18,908 bases of DNA from a candidate division TA06 bacterium SM23_40. GTDB lineage: Bacteria > LJUI01 > SM1-40. The DNA is taken from contig LJUI01000036.1 in the NCBI GenBank assembly GCA_001303705.1, forward strand, positions 1-18,908. The letters are read 5' to 3'. Below the pieces are notes generated by a model that was not told the origin of the DNA, searched no databases, and saw nothing but the letters and a program-made list of their open reading frames with translations. The first letter of the stretch is position 1; every line of letters begins with the position of its first letter. A program made the position numbers and the translations under genes. Positions 12,604 to 17,662 of this stretch are shown piece by piece.

Positions 12604-13326
12604 CTATCGGTCTCCGATGCGCCTAACGTCCCCGGAACCGCTCACTGACGTAACTACTCGGGGGCTCCCGTAGTAGTCGACCTCCCCGCTGCCGCTGACG
12701 GCGACGCTCAGGTTTTCGCGGACCCAGACTCTGGCGGAGCCGGAACCACTCACATCGACTGCTGTTGACTGACTCTCCAGTTCCGAGCCACGGTACTCGC
12801 CGGAGCCAGAGATGGCGACCACCTGTCGGGGGACTTCCCCCTCCACATCACACCTGCCCGAGCCAGTGATGTCGGTATGTAGCTCCTCTGCCCTGAGCGA
12901 GCTGATGGTGATGCTACCAGATCCCGATATGGCCAGGCCCAGACGGTCCGTCGCGACGGAGGGCGCTTCAATGCTTCCTGAGCCTGAGACCTCGAGTCCG
13001 ACGATCTCCTTCATGGTGAGGGTATACGTGATCGGCTTCGTCGGTCGGATCGCCGTCCCTCTCTCAGCGCGTCTGAACCCGAGGACGAGTTGACTGTTCT
13101 TCACCTTGGCTTCGATGTAGGGCATGATATTATCTTCAGCCTCGATCGTGAGCGATTCCCTCTCGCCTTGCGTGAGATTCACGGTGCCTGAACCGTTGAG
13201 CGAGATCTTGTTGAAGTTGCTCACATCAGGGGACTCGGTGACGAGGGTTCCTGAGCCGCTGATCACTTTACAGCCTCCTATGAGAAAAGCAGCTGCGACC
13301 AGTGGGATAGCGATGCACTTCATCAT
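12604..13326 (-). CDS. DUF2807 (GIN domain) lipoprotein
   Basis: A 240-residue exported protein. The N-terminus has a hydrophobic stretch ending in a lipobox, LIGGC, so Cys19 would be lipidated and the protein anchored to a membrane. The rest is a DUF2807/GIN domain: repeated short strands with SGSG turns (for example VSGSGSIEAPS, ISGSGSITISS, VSGSGEVDYYG), expected to fold as a right-handed beta-helix-like structure on the cell surface or in the periplasm. Function is unknown; relatives are frequent in Bacteroidetes and may be adhesins or envelope components. The ATG at 13326 (or 13323) follows GGAGGGAG by seven bases. A diverged paralogue lies at 14375-15094, with a YdeI-type gene between them on the same strand. 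Confidence 0.85.
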   Translation of the reverse strand: MMKCIAIPLVAAAFLIGGCKVISGSGTLVTESPDVSNFNKISLNGSGTVNLTQGERESLTIEAEDNIMPYIEAKVKNSQLVLGFRRAERGTAIRPTKPITYTLTMKEIVGLEVSGSGSIEAPSVATDRLGLAISGSGSITISSLRAEELHTDITGSGRCDVEGEVPRQVVAISGSGEYRGSELESQSTAVDVSGSGSARVWVRENLSVAVSGSGEVDYYGSPRVVTSVSGSGDVRRIGDR

Positions 13327-13510
13327 CCGGCATCTCCCTCCTTCGTATGCGCCCGCGTAGCAGACCTCTACTTGGCTGCGTGGGTACGCGGCGGTGGTAC
13401 ATGTGATCTGACCGCGTGGCCTCCATGCATCTCTCCGGTCGTTCACCGCGGGGTGGATCCACCGCCATCTATGAGGTGAGTCTACGGCTGCCCACGGGGC
13501 GGGCCTATCT

Positions 13511-13885
13511 TCACTCATGCGGCGGCTCCGGGGGCTTGTGGAGTCCGAGCACCTTATCCGGCAACAGAACCTTTCCCGCCTTAGTCATCTTTCCGGCACG
13601 CAGCATCCTGAGTGCGCGAGCCAGGTTGGAGTTCGACCAGGTGCTACGCCTCTCCCGCGGCGTGAAGCGACGTGCGAACTTACCTTGGTCTATCGACTTC
13701 AGCTGGCCATCGATCCAGCCGTAGCATATGGCCTCCTCGACAGAGGCGTCATAGGAGATCGATGGTGTGCCCGTCGCTTTCTTGTAGAAGATGAGCCAGA
13801 TCTCGTTCTTGTGGCGGTGGTGGTGAGCAAGCCACCGCCGCCACTCCCTGCGCGACGTCACATAGAGAGTCTCACCTATGTCCAT
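13511..13885 (-). CDS. YdeI/OmpD-associated (COG4430) family protein, short form
   Basis: A cytoplasmic protein of about 124 residues matching the N-terminal domain of the YdeI/OmdA family. Seen: LYVTSRREWRRWLAHHH, EIWLIFYKK, the signature EEAICYGWIDGQ, RRFTPRERRSTWSN, and the following ALRMLRAGKMTKAG. Full-length relatives of about 190 residues carry a second C-terminal domain, which is missing. The frame stops cleanly after KPPEPPHE, and I found no continuation in another frame downstream. Family members have been tied to bacteriocin protection and polymyxin tolerance in enterobacteria, but the biochemical role is unclear. The start at ATG 13885 has only a weak GAGAG site. The next gene on this strand, the DUF2807 lipoprotein, begins 184 bases further on. 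Confidence 0.75.
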   Translation of the reverse strand: MDIGETLYVTSRREWRRWLAHHHRHKNEIWLIFYKKATGTPSISYDASVEEAICYGWIDGQLKSIDQGKFARRFTPRERRSTWSNSNLARALRMLRAGKMTKAGKVLLPDKVLGLHKPPEPPHE

Positions 13886-14374: not shown

Positions 14375-15094
14375 TCAGCGTCCGAGCTGTGTCAGCCTGC
14401 CGGAGCCCTCCATCACCTGAGCGACGATCGGGCTGCCGTAATAGGCCACTTCGCCTGTTCCGGTCACCGTGGCCGTCAGGTTATCATGTGTGCAGACAGT
14501 GGCACACCCCGTGCCCGTGACCACGACAGTCGTCGTCTCGCTCTCGAGCTCGGGGGCGACATATCTGCCAGAGCCGGAGATGTTGACCGTCTCTATCGGG
14601 GTCTCTCCAGCCACGGCCACGCACCCCGAGCCGCTGATGTCCACCGCCAACCGGTTCGCAGTACACGAGCTGATTGCGATCTTCCCCGGTCCGGAGACGG
14701 CAGCATCGAGAGCCTCGGTCGTGATGGCGGGCGCGTGAATGCGTCCTGGTCCGGAGACGGCCAGCCCGAGGATTTCCCTCATACCCACCTTGAACGTGAC
14801 CGGCTTGGTGGACCGTGTGTCAGTCGGGGACTTATCTGGATGGAATCCCAGGTGAAGTGTGCGGTCCCTCACCTCTACCTCGACGTAGGGCATGATGTTG
14901 TCTTCTGCCACGATGGTGAGAGATTCTTCCTCACCCTGGTCGATGATCACCCTGCCGGTGCCGCTCAACGAGATGCAGTTGAAATCCGCGACCTCGCGGG
15001 ACTCGGTAATGATGTTGCCCGAGCCCTCGGCGGCGACGGCGCCAGTCATCAGCATGAGGGTGAGGGTGCACGTGAGGAGAAGCCTGTGCGTCAT
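14375..15094 (-). CDS. DUF2807 (GIN domain) secreted protein
   Basis: A 239-residue paralogue of the lipoprotein at 12604-13326, sharing blocks such as LTI.AEDNIMPY, SGSG/SGPG turns and YYGSP along the whole length. The N-terminus here is an ordinary signal peptide (hydrophobic core LLLTCTLTLMLM, cleavage after AVAA) without a lipobox cysteine, so the protein should be released into the periplasm or outside rather than anchored. Several turns are SGPG or TGTG instead of SGSG, and there are several extra cysteines (for example SSCTANRL, TVCTHDN). The ATG at 15094 is preferred, with GGAGG eight bases before it. The ATG at 15100 sits too close to that site. Function is unknown. The two paralogues may act together or be regulated differently. 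Confidence 0.83.
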   Translation of the reverse strand: MTHRLLLTCTLTLMLMTGAVAAEGSGNIITESREVADFNCISLSGTGRVIIDQGEEESLTIVAEDNIMPYVEVEVRDRTLHLGFHPDKSPTDTRSTKPVTFKVGMREILGLAVSGPGRIHAPAITTEALDAAVSGPGKIAISSCTANRLAVDISGSGCVAVAGETPIETVNISGSGRYVAPELESETTTVVVTGTGCATVCTHDNLTATVTGTGEVAYYGSPIVAQVMEGSGRLTQLGR

Positions 15095-15441
15095 CGCCAT
15101 TTCCTCCCTCTGTGGTGTGATGGTGAGTGACGTTCTGACCTGGGACCGACGCCGGGGCGTCAGCCCGACAAAGAGCGCATATCTGTCGGGGAGGCACATA
15201 GGAGGGTGTCAGTACTTATACGTCTTGAACGGCGAGATGGTTTCATTAGAATTGCCGAAGGTCAGGCATCAGGGGGGTAAACCGTTGCACGGAGGGTGAC
15301 ATACTCCAGGGGGGGCACCTGTTACCGAGAGGGTGACGTATTCCGGGTGGGCTACCTGTTGCAGAGAGGGCAGCGCGTCGTACGAGGGCGAACCGATTGC
15401 AGGTAGGGATCCCGTCATAGCGACAGACAGGGAAAAAAGGC
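15095..15441. other. divergent intergenic region, left part
   Basis: This is the upstream side of the minus-strand DUF2807 gene and of the plus-strand ABC operon leader. It holds two inverted repeats in the presumed leader of the DUF2807 gene: GACGCC/GGCGTC (15148-15161, 2-base loop) and CCCGACA/TGTCGGG (15164-15190, 13-base loop). The degenerate 36-38 bp direct repeats listed separately follow. No ORF with coding character is seen. I found no convincing minus-strand promoter, although TATAAG occurs on that strand near 15215. Confidence 0.4.
15276..15428 (+). repeat. four degenerate direct repeats of 36-38 bp
   Basis: Four tandem units start near 15276, 15312, 15349 and 15387 (periods 36, 37 and 38). 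They share the pattern GGnnACCnnTTGCA, then nGAGGGnGAC, then GTATTCC-like bases and a G-run. Units one to three are clearest; the fourth is more diverged. A shortened unit may precede them (15253-15277). They end about 15 bases before the -35 element of the ABC-operon promoter, so they could be an array of binding sites. No such unit was noticed elsewhere in the window. Confidence 0.5.
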
Positions 15442-15470
15442 TTGACAGATACCGGCCCATGGGCTAGAGT
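15442..15470 (+). promoter_or_regulatory. strong sigma70-like promoter of the ABC exporter leader
   Basis: TTGACA (15442-15447) and TAGAGT (15465-15470) are separated by 17 bases: a perfect -35 and a 4/6 -10. The spacer contains the perfect 10 bp palindrome GCCCATGGGC (15455-15464), well placed for a repressor or a MerR-like regulator. Transcription should start near 15477, about 310 bases before the ATPase start codon. Confidence 0.65.
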
Positions 15471-15502
15471 TGTGACAAGAGTAGTTAGGGACGTACGCGA
15501 GA

Positions 15503-15530
15503 CTGCAGGCCGGGCTGGCCCGCCTTGCAG
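15503..15530 (+). other. stem-loop in the 5' leader of the ABC operon
   Basis: Two 13-base arms, CTGCAGGCCGGGC and GCCCGCCTTGCAG, can pair with one mismatch and one G-U pair around a tiny loop; the innermost pairs would open in practice. It lies about 26 bases from the predicted transcript start and just before the leader ORF. It may protect the 5' end or belong to a larger regulatory fold. Confidence 0.35.
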
Positions 15531-15555
15531 CCGCCACTGAGTACTGGAGGAATCG

Positions 15556-15618
15556 ATGCTAAGCAGGTTGGCAAAGTTGAGTATCGGGCTTCTCGACGAG
15601 GGAGGAGTGTGTCCGTAG
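15556..15618 (+). CDS. putative 20-residue leader peptide upstream of the ABC exporter
   Basis: A short ORF too small for routine gene calling, with a strong ribosome binding site (GGAGGA at 15546-15551, five bases before ATG). The peptide reads MLSRLAKLSIGLLDEGGVCP and ends Pro-stop, a context known to slow translation termination (TnaC also ends in Pro-stop). A second Shine-Dalgarno-like stretch, GGGAGGAG, lies inside its last codons and may cause pausing. It has five leucines of 20 but no uninterrupted run of regulatory codons. Its stop is 34 bases before the first attenuator arm. The position between promoter, alternative hairpins and the ABC genes suggests a regulatory leader peptide. 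Translation is unproven. Confidence 0.45.
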   Translation: MLSRLAKLSIGLLDEGGVCP

Positions 15619-15651
15619 CCTACCTGTTTTAGTGCATCGCGTAAGTCATTG

Positions 15652-15740
15652 GGCCATGGGCACCTCCGAGAAGGTGCCCATGGCCGCTTTTATGTCGTTT
15701 CGGCCATGGGATCGGAAAGAGCGACGATCCCATCTTTTTT
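15652..15740 (+). promoter_or_regulatory. mutually exclusive hairpins: putative transcription attenuator
   Basis: Arm 1 (GGCCATGGGCACCT, 15652-15665) pairs perfectly with arm 2 (AGGTGCCCATGGCC, 15672-15685) as a 14 bp hairpin. Arm 3 (15702-15714) pairs with arm 4 (15725-15733) as the terminator. Arm 2 with its next base, CCCATGGCCG (15677-15686), is also perfectly complementary to CGGCCATGGG (15701-15710), giving a 10 bp alternative that would consume the 5' arm of the terminator. So 1:2 permits termination and 2:3 prevents it, the layout of classical attenuators. The trigger (ribosome position, protein or small molecule) is unknown. Confidence 0.5.
15706..15740 (+). terminator. intrinsic terminator in the ABC operon leader
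   Basis: ATGGGATCG (15706-15714) and CGATCCCAT (15725-15733) form a perfect 9 bp stem with a 10-base loop, followed after one C by six T residues (15735-15740). It lies between the leader promoter and the ATPase ribosome binding site (15771-15780), on the same strand, so transcripts must read through it to express the exporter. Confidence 0.7.
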
Positions 15741-15787
15741 CGTAGGAAATCTCTACCACGGCCTGACGGCGGGAGGAGGTGAGCGAG

Positions 15788-16762
15788 ATGGCCTCCCGGG
15801 CGGCTGACGATCGCGAACAGGGGCGACTCGTTGTGGCGAAGGTGCAGGGTGGGACCACCAGTGAACGAGTACAGGATATGAAAACGAAACCAATGAAAAG
15901 AGGTCATGTCGGGAAGACTGCCGTGCTTCCAGAGGCAGGGGACGTGGCATTGGCCTGTCACAGCGTAGGGAAGGTGTTCTACAAGACCCCGAGCGGCGGG
16001 CCGGGCGAACGCCGGTTCCCGATGAGACGCGCGGGGAGACGGAAGGTTTTTGCGCTCAGGGATGTCGGGTTCTCCGTGCCCAGGGGCGAGATATTCGGGA
16101 TCGTCGGGCCGAACGGGTCGGGGAAGAGCACGCTGGTGCGGATCATCTCCACGCTCCTCTACCCCGACCAGGGAAGTGTCTCGGTCTTCGGATACGACGT
16201 CCAGAAGGAGGCGCGCCAGGTCCGCCGCCTCATCAACCGCGTGAGCGTCGATGCCTCTTTCTTCAAGAGGCTCTCGGCGTGGGAGAATCTCAGGTATGCG
16301 TCCCGGCTGTATGGACTGCCGCCGAAAGAGGGGCGTGAGGCCACACTCCGCATCATGGAGCGTCTGGGCTTCAAGAGGGAACGGATGAGCGATCCCCTGG
16401 AGGATCTCTCCCGTGGAATGCAGCAGAAGGTGGCGATTGCGAGGGCACTCATGACCTCTCCCGTACTGCTTCTGCTCGACGAGCCGACTACGGGTCTCGA
16501 TCCGAAGTCGAAGCGGGAGGTGCAGCGGTTTATTCTCGAAACGCGGGACGAGCACGATGCGACCATTCTCCTCACGACCCACGACATGGACGAGGCGGAC
16601 CGGGTATGCAATCGGGTCGCCATCATTGATGGCGGACGGTTCGTGGCGGTCGATACGCCCGAAGGGCTGAAGCGAGCGATCGGCAGCGGAGATGGCGGCA
16701 CTACATTAGAAGATGTGTTCCTCGAACTCACAGGAAAAGGCTGGGGAGATGAGGATGAGTGA
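15788..16762 (+). CDS. ABC-2 type exporter, ATP-binding protein
   Basis: A 324-residue ATPase of the DrrA/CcmA-like ABC-2 exporter class. It energises the membrane protein encoded downstream. Seen: Walker A GPNGSGKST (107-115), a Q-loop region near RRLINRVSVDASFF (the usual Gln is not obvious), signature LSRGMQQKVAIARA (from 207; the typical LSGGQ is altered to LSRGM, which is common in this class), Walker B LLLLDEPTTGLD (Asp231, Glu232) and H-loop LTTHDMDEAD. Before the domain there is a poorly conserved extension of about 55 residues, and an Arg-rich insertion (ERRFPMRRAGRRK) sits in the first strand region. ATG 15788 follows GGGAGGAGGT by seven bases. A GTG at 15779 overlaps that site and is unlikely. 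Transcription must pass the leader terminator. Substrate unknown. Confidence 0.92.
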   Translation: MASRAADDREQGRLVVAKVQGGTTSERVQDMKTKPMKRGHVGKTAVLPEAGDVALACHSVGKVFYKTPSGGPGERRFPMRRAGRRKVFALRDVGFSVPRGEIFGIVGPNGSGKSTLVRIISTLLYPDQGSVSVFGYDVQKEARQVRRLINRVSVDASFFKRLSAWENLRYASRLYGLPPKEGREATLRIMERLGFKRERMSDPLEDLSRGMQQKVAIARALMTSPVLLLLDEPTTGLDPKSKREVQRFILETRDEHDATILLTTHDMDEADRVCNRVAIIDGGRFVAVDTPEGLKRAIGSGDGGTTLEDVFLELTGKGWGDEDE

Positions 16763-16910
16763 GATCGAACATGACGATGAGCGATATATGAGCCATGTGC
16801 TGACGGCAGATTGCGCGGGGGAAGTCGGCCCCCTGCGAGAGTTGTCGCGATTCAGGAGGAAGGTAGAATGGGGATTATGGCCGAGGCTGGGGCCTCGTGG
16901 GCGTTTGTAG
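16755..16910 (+). CDS. possible 51-residue ORF bridging the two ABC genes
   Basis: An open frame whose ATG overlaps the ATPase stop (ATGAGTGA), with GGGGAG about ten bases upstream. It runs across the 105-base gap and into the first codons of the permease in another frame. The start MSEIEHDDERYMSHVL looks plausible, but the later part (WGLWPRLGPRGRL) looks like a shadow of the permease. It could be a coupling ORF that carries ribosomes to the permease start. No family is recognised. Confidence 0.18.
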   Translation: MSEIEHDDERYMSHVLTADCAGEVGPLRELSRFRRKVEWGLWPRLGPRGRL

Positions 16911-17662
16911 AACGTAACTTCACGCTCGTACGACGCTACATAGGGTGGGAGGCCGTCTTCGTCACTTACAGCATCGTCAATTCGCTGACGATCGCATTCA
17001 TCGGCGTCACACAGGGGAAAGAGAAGGTGATGTACCTGGTAGTGGGCGCGATGATCTGGGGGTTCCTCTCGCTTCTGTTTCACGAGATCAGCGAGTCGAT
17101 CGCCTGGGAGCGCTGGGAGGGTACGATCGAGTACACCTTCATGGCGCCGATCCACCGGTTCACGCACCTTGGCGGTAACTGCGTCTTCGCGATCATCTAT
17201 GGGACGCTTCGGAGCTTCTTGCTGCTCTTCTGTGTGGCGATCTTCTTCCGGCTCAGCCTGCAGGGCGCGAACCTCGTGACGGCCCTCATCATACTGATGG
17301 TGAGTGGACTCTCCTTCGTCGGATTGGGGCTTGTGGCGGCGGTTCTTCCCCTGCTCTCGACTGAGAAGGGCGCTCAGGCGACGCACATCTTCGAGGCCGT
17401 GCTCCTGCTCATCTCGGGGGTGTACTATGAGGTGGACGTGCTGCCGGCTTGGATTCGCCCGCTTTCGGCGGTCTCCCCGGCCACCTATACCCTGCGGGCG
17501 ATACGCAGGGCTCTGTTGGAGGGGGCGTCTATCACTGAGCTGTGGCCGACGGTCGCCCTGATACTAGGGCTCGGCATCGTGCTCATTCCCGGGGGGCTCG
17601 TCATCTTCAGGGCGGCTGAGGGGCATGCGAAGCGGACGGGGAAACTGAAGCGGAGCGGATAG
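16868..17662 (+). CDS. ABC-2 type exporter, membrane permease
   Basis: A 264-residue inner-membrane protein, the partner of the ATPase just upstream. About six hydrophobic segments are seen: AVFVTYSIVNSLTIAFIGV, VMYLVVGAMIWGFLSLLF, VFAIIYGTLRSFLLLFCVAI, LVTALIILMVSGLSFVGLGL, HIFEAVLLLISGVYYEV and VALILGLGIVLIPGGLVIF. The amphipathic coupling region SIAWERWEGTIEYTFMAP and the late SGVYYEVDVLP...SPATYTLRAIRRALLEG block are typical of ABC-2 permeases of the DrrB/YadH/NodJ kind. The ATG at 16868 follows GGAGG by eight bases; upstream in-frame codons lack a site. A second ATG at 16877 is possible. The ATPase-to-permease gap is 105 bases with no terminator. It may export a drug, lipid or glycan; nothing selects among these. 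Confidence 0.9.
   Translation: MGIMAEAGASWAFVERNFTLVRRYIGWEAVFVTYSIVNSLTIAFIGVTQGKEKVMYLVVGAMIWGFLSLLFHEISESIAWERWEGTIEYTFMAPIHRFTHLGGNCVFAIIYGTLRSFLLLFCVAIFFRLSLQGANLVTALIILMVSGLSFVGLGLVAAVLPLLSTEKGAQATHIFEAVLLLISGVYYEVDVLPAWIRPLSAVSPATYTLRAIRRALLEGASITELWPTVALILGLGIVLIPGGLVIFRAAEGHAKRTGKLKRSG

Follow-up and report, generated by a model that had tools for sequence, protein, structure and literature searches.

The locus and its leader

The window, by which we mean the whole stretch of 18,908 nucleotides that was analysed, carries a two-gene ABC-2 exporter operon on the + strand. Ahead of it lies a leader (15442-15787) with its own promoter, a short ORF with a Shine–Dalgarno sequence (SD), and two terminator hairpins, T1 and T2. 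The features are as follows.

15442..15470, + strand: sigma-70-type promoter, TTGACA-17-TAGAGT, consensus score 10/12
~15502..15529, + strand: 5' stem-loop CTGCAGG..CCTTGCAG in the predicted fold, directly ahead of the leader SD
15546..15618, + strand: leader ORF with SD GGAGG, 20 codons from ATG at 15556 to TAG at 15618, peptide MLSRLAKLSIGLLDEGGVCP
15588..15594, + strand: candidate region 1, GCTTCTC, pairing partner 15602-15608, weak in the window
15604..15615, + strand: region 2, the antiterminator strand, GGAG[U]GUGUCCG, in the final leader codons, partner 15657-15667
15652..15694, + strand: terminator T1, arm 3 at 15652-15665, arm 4 at 15672-15685, tail GCTTTTATG
15677..15710, + strand: relay helix of 10 bp, T1 3' arm (15677-15686) with T2 5' flank (15701-15710)
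15706..15742, + strand: terminator T2, arms 15706-15714 and 15725-15733, tail CTTTTTTCG
15788..16762, + strand: ABC ATPase, DrrA-like (Pfam ABC_tran, E 5.5e-33)
16868..17662, + strand: ABC-2 permease, DrrB-like (ABC2_membrane, E 3.1e-14)

A preliminary description of this DNA had named the promoter, a small stem-loop, a 20-codon ORF with a good ribosome site, a perfect 14 bp hairpin, a terminator with six T residues, and the ribosome site and ATG of an ABC ATPase, and all of these were recovered at the positions above. The 14 bp hairpin, a perfect inverted repeat, folds at -31.5 kcal/mol (z -7.6 against shuffles), and the second hairpin folds at -14.2 kcal/mol and is followed by CTTTTTT. Since T1 also has a U-rich tail of its own and was chosen by a consensus scan as the terminator-like site here, we regard the two hairpins as tandem terminators. 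As in an attenuator, these intrinsic terminators stand between a promoter and the controlled gene. The fold of the whole leader has a z of -3.25, and none of 100 shuffles was equally good. Two 11-nt arms at 15490-15500 and 15637-15647, 91% complementary, could in addition bring the transcript start together with the segment that separates the ORF from T1.

The ABC ATPase gene has a purine-rich SD, GGGAGGAGG, ahead of its ATG at 15788. The top NCBIfam matches of the two exporter genes were drrA (246 bits) and drrB (44 bits), each under its curated cut-off. Approximately 53 N-terminal residues of the ABC ATPase (window 15788-15940) are absent from its orthologues, and the real start may lie further downstream, making the leader longer. 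Two DUF2807 (head GIN domain) paralogues lie near each other on the minus strand (12607-13518 and 14378-15199), the latter divergent from the leader. The stretch between this divergent gene and the leader promoter contains degenerate tandem repeats of about 37 nt (15270-15420), a 14-nt piece of which (..TACCTGTT) is found again in the leader at 15615-15628.

Distribution of the leader

The window genome has no close relative in the comparison set and is the sole representative of its phylum there. Orthologous exporters were found in Zixibacteria, Stahlbacteria, Edwardsbacteria, Bacillota, Chloroflexota, and Poribacteria, and more were taken from the phyla of chosen carriers. A leader was called by a fixed rule, namely an SD-led ORF of 8-60 codons whose stop lies 0-45 nt ahead of a terminator hairpin. 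By this rule, 62 of 160 upstream regions, the window included, have a leader (some calls in relatives being uncertain through a weak SD or a wrong terminator). Dinucleotide shuffles satisfy the rule in 1% of cases, and of 27 regions upstream of other ABC ATPases one does. Among orthologues with at least 300 nt of upstream sequence, the leader order is present in 61 of the 112 that are not poribacterial: 1/1 in the window's own group, 3/3 in Zixibacteria, 13/20 in the Stahlbacteria group, 19/38 in Bacillota, 25/46 in Chloroflexota, and 0/4 in other groups. In Bacillota and Chloroflexota, roughly half of the orthologues are thus without a leader under this rule, as are all 38 poribacterial ones with that much upstream sequence. 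The poribacterial loci (L048-L118) have orthologous exporter operons and can serve as a natural reference for judging the leader's contribution. No leader was seen on reading the sequence upstream of the first two orthologues (L010 and L011), and a search of viral contigs found nothing.

The carriers share more than the order of parts. Sixty other, non-identical leaders have an SD-led short ORF in the corresponding position, and 39 of 49 leaders have a promoter scoring at least 10/12 no more than 130 nt ahead of the ORF (1% of shuffles). The T1 core GCC[AG]TGGGC is kept in relatives, many of which have a second terminator with a T1-like sequence. In the leaders of one Chloroflexota group (L282, L287, L289, L297, L298, L305, and L307), the ORF stop is separated from T1 by a further GGCGG..CCGCC hairpin that the window lacks. 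Regions resembling the leader, but diverged from it, were also seen in Alicyclobacillus pomorum, A. kakegawensis, and A. herbarius.

A covariance model built from these leaders gave at most one match per genome in 251 Chloroflexota genomes, and all 19 matches with E below 1e-6 sit just upstream of the exporter operon when compared by coordinates. Three weak Chloroflexota matches away from the operon were taken as chance. In the window genome the model scores at the window locus alone, weak matches elsewhere (E 1.8 and 3.2) likewise being taken as chance. Rfam at its gathering score had no match for the window or for ten relatives, in agreement with the earlier remark that no known riboswitch class is recognisable here. 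This leader was not found in the literature, in a search that reached few subscription papers.

Pairing of the ORF end with the first terminator

In the relatives that were read, the end of the leader ORF can base-pair with the 5' arm of T1, through sequences that differ between lineages. The pairings of region 2 with arm 3 (2:3) are as follows.

Window: GGAG[U]GUGUCCG with UGGGCAC-CUCC
Chloroflexota: CCGCAG[U]GCGCC with GGCGC-CUGCGG, or GAUCUG[C]GCCCA with UGGGC-CAGAUC
Stahlbacteria: GGGGAUGUCC with GGGUAUCCCC, or GAAGUCCAC with GUGGGCUUC

In the window this helix has 11 bp and one bulged U (15604-15615 : 15657-15667). A model with a 4-nt bulge, AGTG, was dropped, since the single-U bulge fits more sequences. 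To see whether the match is specific, each ORF end was paired with its own arm and with every other arm. Own pairs had a mean energy of -20.7 kcal/mol compared with -16.3 for permuted pairs, an average difference of 4.4 kcal/mol (z -10.6, 0/5000 permutations), and keeping a single leader from each cluster still gave a z of about -6 to -7. Nine loci with automatic leader calls on a weak SD were left out of the later swap tests. The controls were flat for the ORF start (z -0.6), the sequence upstream of the ORF (-0.3), and the 3' arm (-1.5), and the gap between ORF and T1 gave nothing comparable to the ORF-end signal. The reversed ORF end gave a z of -4.5, so base composition supplies part of the signal. 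The window's own ORF end preferred its own arm over all 60 foreign arms.

Covariation points the same way. When 16 leaders were aligned with MAFFT from sequence only, without use of structure, the 2:3 helix was paired in 93.6% of cells. There were 17 double-sided changes, a number that none of 500 shuffles reached, and sliding the columns by one to three positions brought pairing down to 16-50%. Covariance-model matches, including those in genomes outside the model building, show the same 2:3 behaviour, in an alignment that is itself fitted to the structure. Co-evolution and covariation together identify an antiterminator that overlaps the ORF end and is exclusive with the terminator, as in an attenuator.

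These results both uphold and revise the preliminary description. It had made conservation of the alternative pairing in relatives one of the points on which attenuation would stand or fall, and alternative pairing is conserved. Its outline of leader-peptide attenuation of an exporter with mutually exclusive arms stands. Its main antiterminator, the second arm of the 14 bp hairpin pairing with the 5' arm of the T6 terminator, has to be replaced by 15604-15615 : 15657-15667, which co-evolves across phyla. It had also seen a difficulty in the leader stop codon lying 34 bases before the first hairpin arm. This disappears because region 2 is precisely the segment that a ribosome would cover on reaching the stop codon.

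Regions 1 and 2 and the proposed relay between terminators

Pairing of the ORF start or SD region with the ORF end is also stronger within leaders than between them (z -4.2; per cluster, z -2.3 to -2.9, with a reversed control near 0). This co-evolution indicates that many leaders have the full set of 1:2, 2:3, and 3:4 pairings. In the window itself, the 1:2 helix (15588-15594 : 15602-15608) has an energy of -9.2 kcal/mol and does not exceed shuffles.

The 10 bp complementarity between 15677-15686 and 15701-15710 reported earlier is real. As the main switch it does not hold, and it is best read as a relay, a second step that disarms T2 once T1 has been disarmed. The RNA of 15672-15742 folds as the relay helix at -24.7 kcal/mol, compared with -14.2 kcal/mol for T2 alone. 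In leaders with two terminators, the T1 3' arm matches the T2 5' arm (z -3.9, n=21), and in a curated set of 15 tandem-terminator leaders z was -4.5, with a mean p of 0.018 over five clusters.

Predicted folds of 52 leaders gave a mean probability for T1 of 0.81 when free of ribosomes, 0.61 with a ribosome near the start, and 0.92 with a ribosome at the stop. In the window, the equilibrium probability of T1 was 0.80-0.99 at every ribosome position. Since T1 is favoured at equilibrium there, the switch in the window must be kinetic or weak.

Proposed mechanism

We consider it very probable that the window leader is a ribosome-mediated transcription attenuator of the DrrAB-like ABC-2 exporter operon, in which translation of the 20-aa leader peptide most likely decides between a stop and continuation into the exporter operon. 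We infer stalling, the direction of control, and the inducer as follows. Transcription would start after 15470, and a ribosome would begin the 20-codon leader. In normal translation, the ribosome at the stop codon would cover region 2, T1 would fold with T2 as a backup, and the exporter would stay off. Were the ribosome to be held up before it reaches the second half of the ORF, region 2 would be free as arm 3 emerges, and 2:3 would pair. T1 would then be blocked, its freed 3' arm would capture the 5' arm of T2, and the polymerase would enter the exporter genes. With no ribosome, region 1 may hold region 2 in many relatives, leading to termination as in trp-type leaders. In the window, the decision would be made while RNA polymerase moves, at a time when arm 4 is not yet transcribed but 2:3 can already form. 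What holds the ribosome up is most likely a translation inhibitor that the exporter removes, as suggested by the type of exporter and by the lack of a regulatory codon run in the leaders.

A wider proposal, which we put forward tentatively and regard as somewhat doubtful, is that of a related leader family in at least five phyla, attached to one ABC-2 exporter and working by a five-arm relay (region 2, freed by a stalled ribosome, takes arm 3, and freed arm 4 takes the second terminator), in which a peptide end of R-S-[AV]-P or [CS]-P close to the stop might additionally serve as an arrest peptide sensing the exported compound. Leader ORFs of Stahlbacteria and the window (window, L041, L043, L228, L231, and L233) tend to have [CS]-P or C-L as the last residues before the stop, and such residues directly at the stop could slow translation termination.

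Other explanations share some of this evidence. A classical amino-acid-starvation attenuator, sensing the charging of one tRNA rather than an antibiotic, would have the same triad of 1:2, 2:3, and 3:4 pairings, and five of the 20 residues in the window leader are Leu. However, no amino acid dominates in the 52 leaders (Arg 10.7%, Ala 10.4%, and Gly 9.5%), runs of three identical residues occur in only 6 of the 52 and are of different kinds, so that a run of regulatory codons is not seen, and the controlled genes encode an exporter rather than a biosynthetic operon. We therefore find this improbable. The alternative folds of terminator and antiterminator, together with RNA sequence similarity across phyla, would also suit a ligand-binding riboswitch or protein-binding leader in which the ORF is incidental. 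Yet the leaders have no conserved aptamer-like core beyond regions 2 and 3, Rfam recognised none of those searched, a well-placed SD and ORF are kept, and the antiterminator strand lies within the coding end, all of which makes such a leader highly unlikely.

Two further explanations set the hairpins or the peptide apart from control by translation. Given the great strength of T1 as a terminator, the leader might be a free-standing small RNA or short gene with tandem terminators, the exporter being transcribed from elsewhere. Against this, a scan of 15000-16000 revealed no further promoter-like site on the + strand in the interval from T2 to the ABC gene, so the exporter seems dependent on read-through; the leader is tied to the operon in 19/19 strong Chloroflexota matches, and the ORF end co-evolves with a terminator arm. 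We judge a free-standing RNA quite unlikely. It is also scarcely probable that the ORF encodes a functional peptide (pheromone or bacteriocin-like) secreted by the adjacent ABC-2 exporter, with the hairpins setting its dosage. C-terminal motifs do recur within lineages (PCRSAP, GRSVP, and ARPDP), and the Ser of GRS[VA]P is kept among leaders despite AGT and TCT codons. However, the N-termini vary freely, the C-terminal motif overlaps the antiterminator strand, and the conserved GGGAGGAGTGTG.CC is read in one frame in the window and L039 and in another in L040 and the Chloroflexota, which points to a constraint at the RNA level.

A related likeness concerns another frame of the window. GRSVSVAYLF* (~15594-15629) resembles in-frame leader ends of Zixibacteria (GRSVSIAEG* and GRSLSIAES*) and Chloroflexota (GRSVPI..), which would reflect conservation of the RNA irrespective of frame or else a frameshift, either old or introduced by assembly. 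It was rejected as the real leader, as it has no start codon with an SD.

Comparison with known systems

With ribosome-mediated attenuation as the preferred reading, the same logic, a recognisable RNA similarity, and one ABC-2 exporter are found together in mostly uncultured phyla, namely Chloroflexota, Zixibacteria, Stahlbacteria, and the window lineage. Conservation of the leader suggests that the exporter handles translation inhibitors. The covariance model, with its single match per genome at most, offers a sequence handle for finding such inducible export systems, and, as the pairing is conserved, a short reporter construct could be used to test both mechanism and inducer.

In trp-type leaders, arms pair as 1:2, 2:3, and 3:4, and a ribosome near the stop codon masks region 2. 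The window system differs in that it has neither a regulatory codon run nor biosynthetic genes. To our knowledge, the described cases of ribosome-mediated control over drug export come mainly from a few gram-positive bacteria. The closest mechanistic analogue is bmrB-bmrCD of Bacillus subtilis, where ribosome-targeting antibiotics slow the leader ribosome and cause read-through into an ABC drug exporter, BmrCD being described as a multidrug ABC transporter (PMC4191407). Leader ORF, alternative stem-loops, and ABC exporter are common to both. However, the bmrB ORF has 53 codons and contains the terminator within its coding sequence (PMC4191407), whereas the ORFs here have about 20-40 codons, two terminators lie past the stop, a DrrAB-like ABC-2 pair forms the exporter, and several phyla are involved. 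In the macrolide attenuator of mef(E)/mel, a ribosome stalled on a leader peptide opens a 1:2 stem, and there are an anti-attenuator and a Rho-independent terminator (PMC4335068). The principle is similar, and the two adjacent terminators described for erm(K) in the same paper resemble T1 and T2 (PMC4335068). The window leader peptide, however, has no resemblance to the eight-codon Mef(E)L (MTASMRLR), which is similar to macrolide-arrest leaders (PMC4335068), and the antiterminator here is the ORF end itself. A 2010 survey of terminators reported "ABC-leaders", premature terminators upstream of ABC transporter operons, including that of a multidrug exporter in lactobacilli; these are separate, lineage-specific elements, and Chloroflexota are unmentioned there (PMC2965389). 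The principle of attenuation is thus already known from bmrB-bmrCD and mef(E)/mel, and what is unusual here is the conservation across phyla and the relay from T1 to T2.
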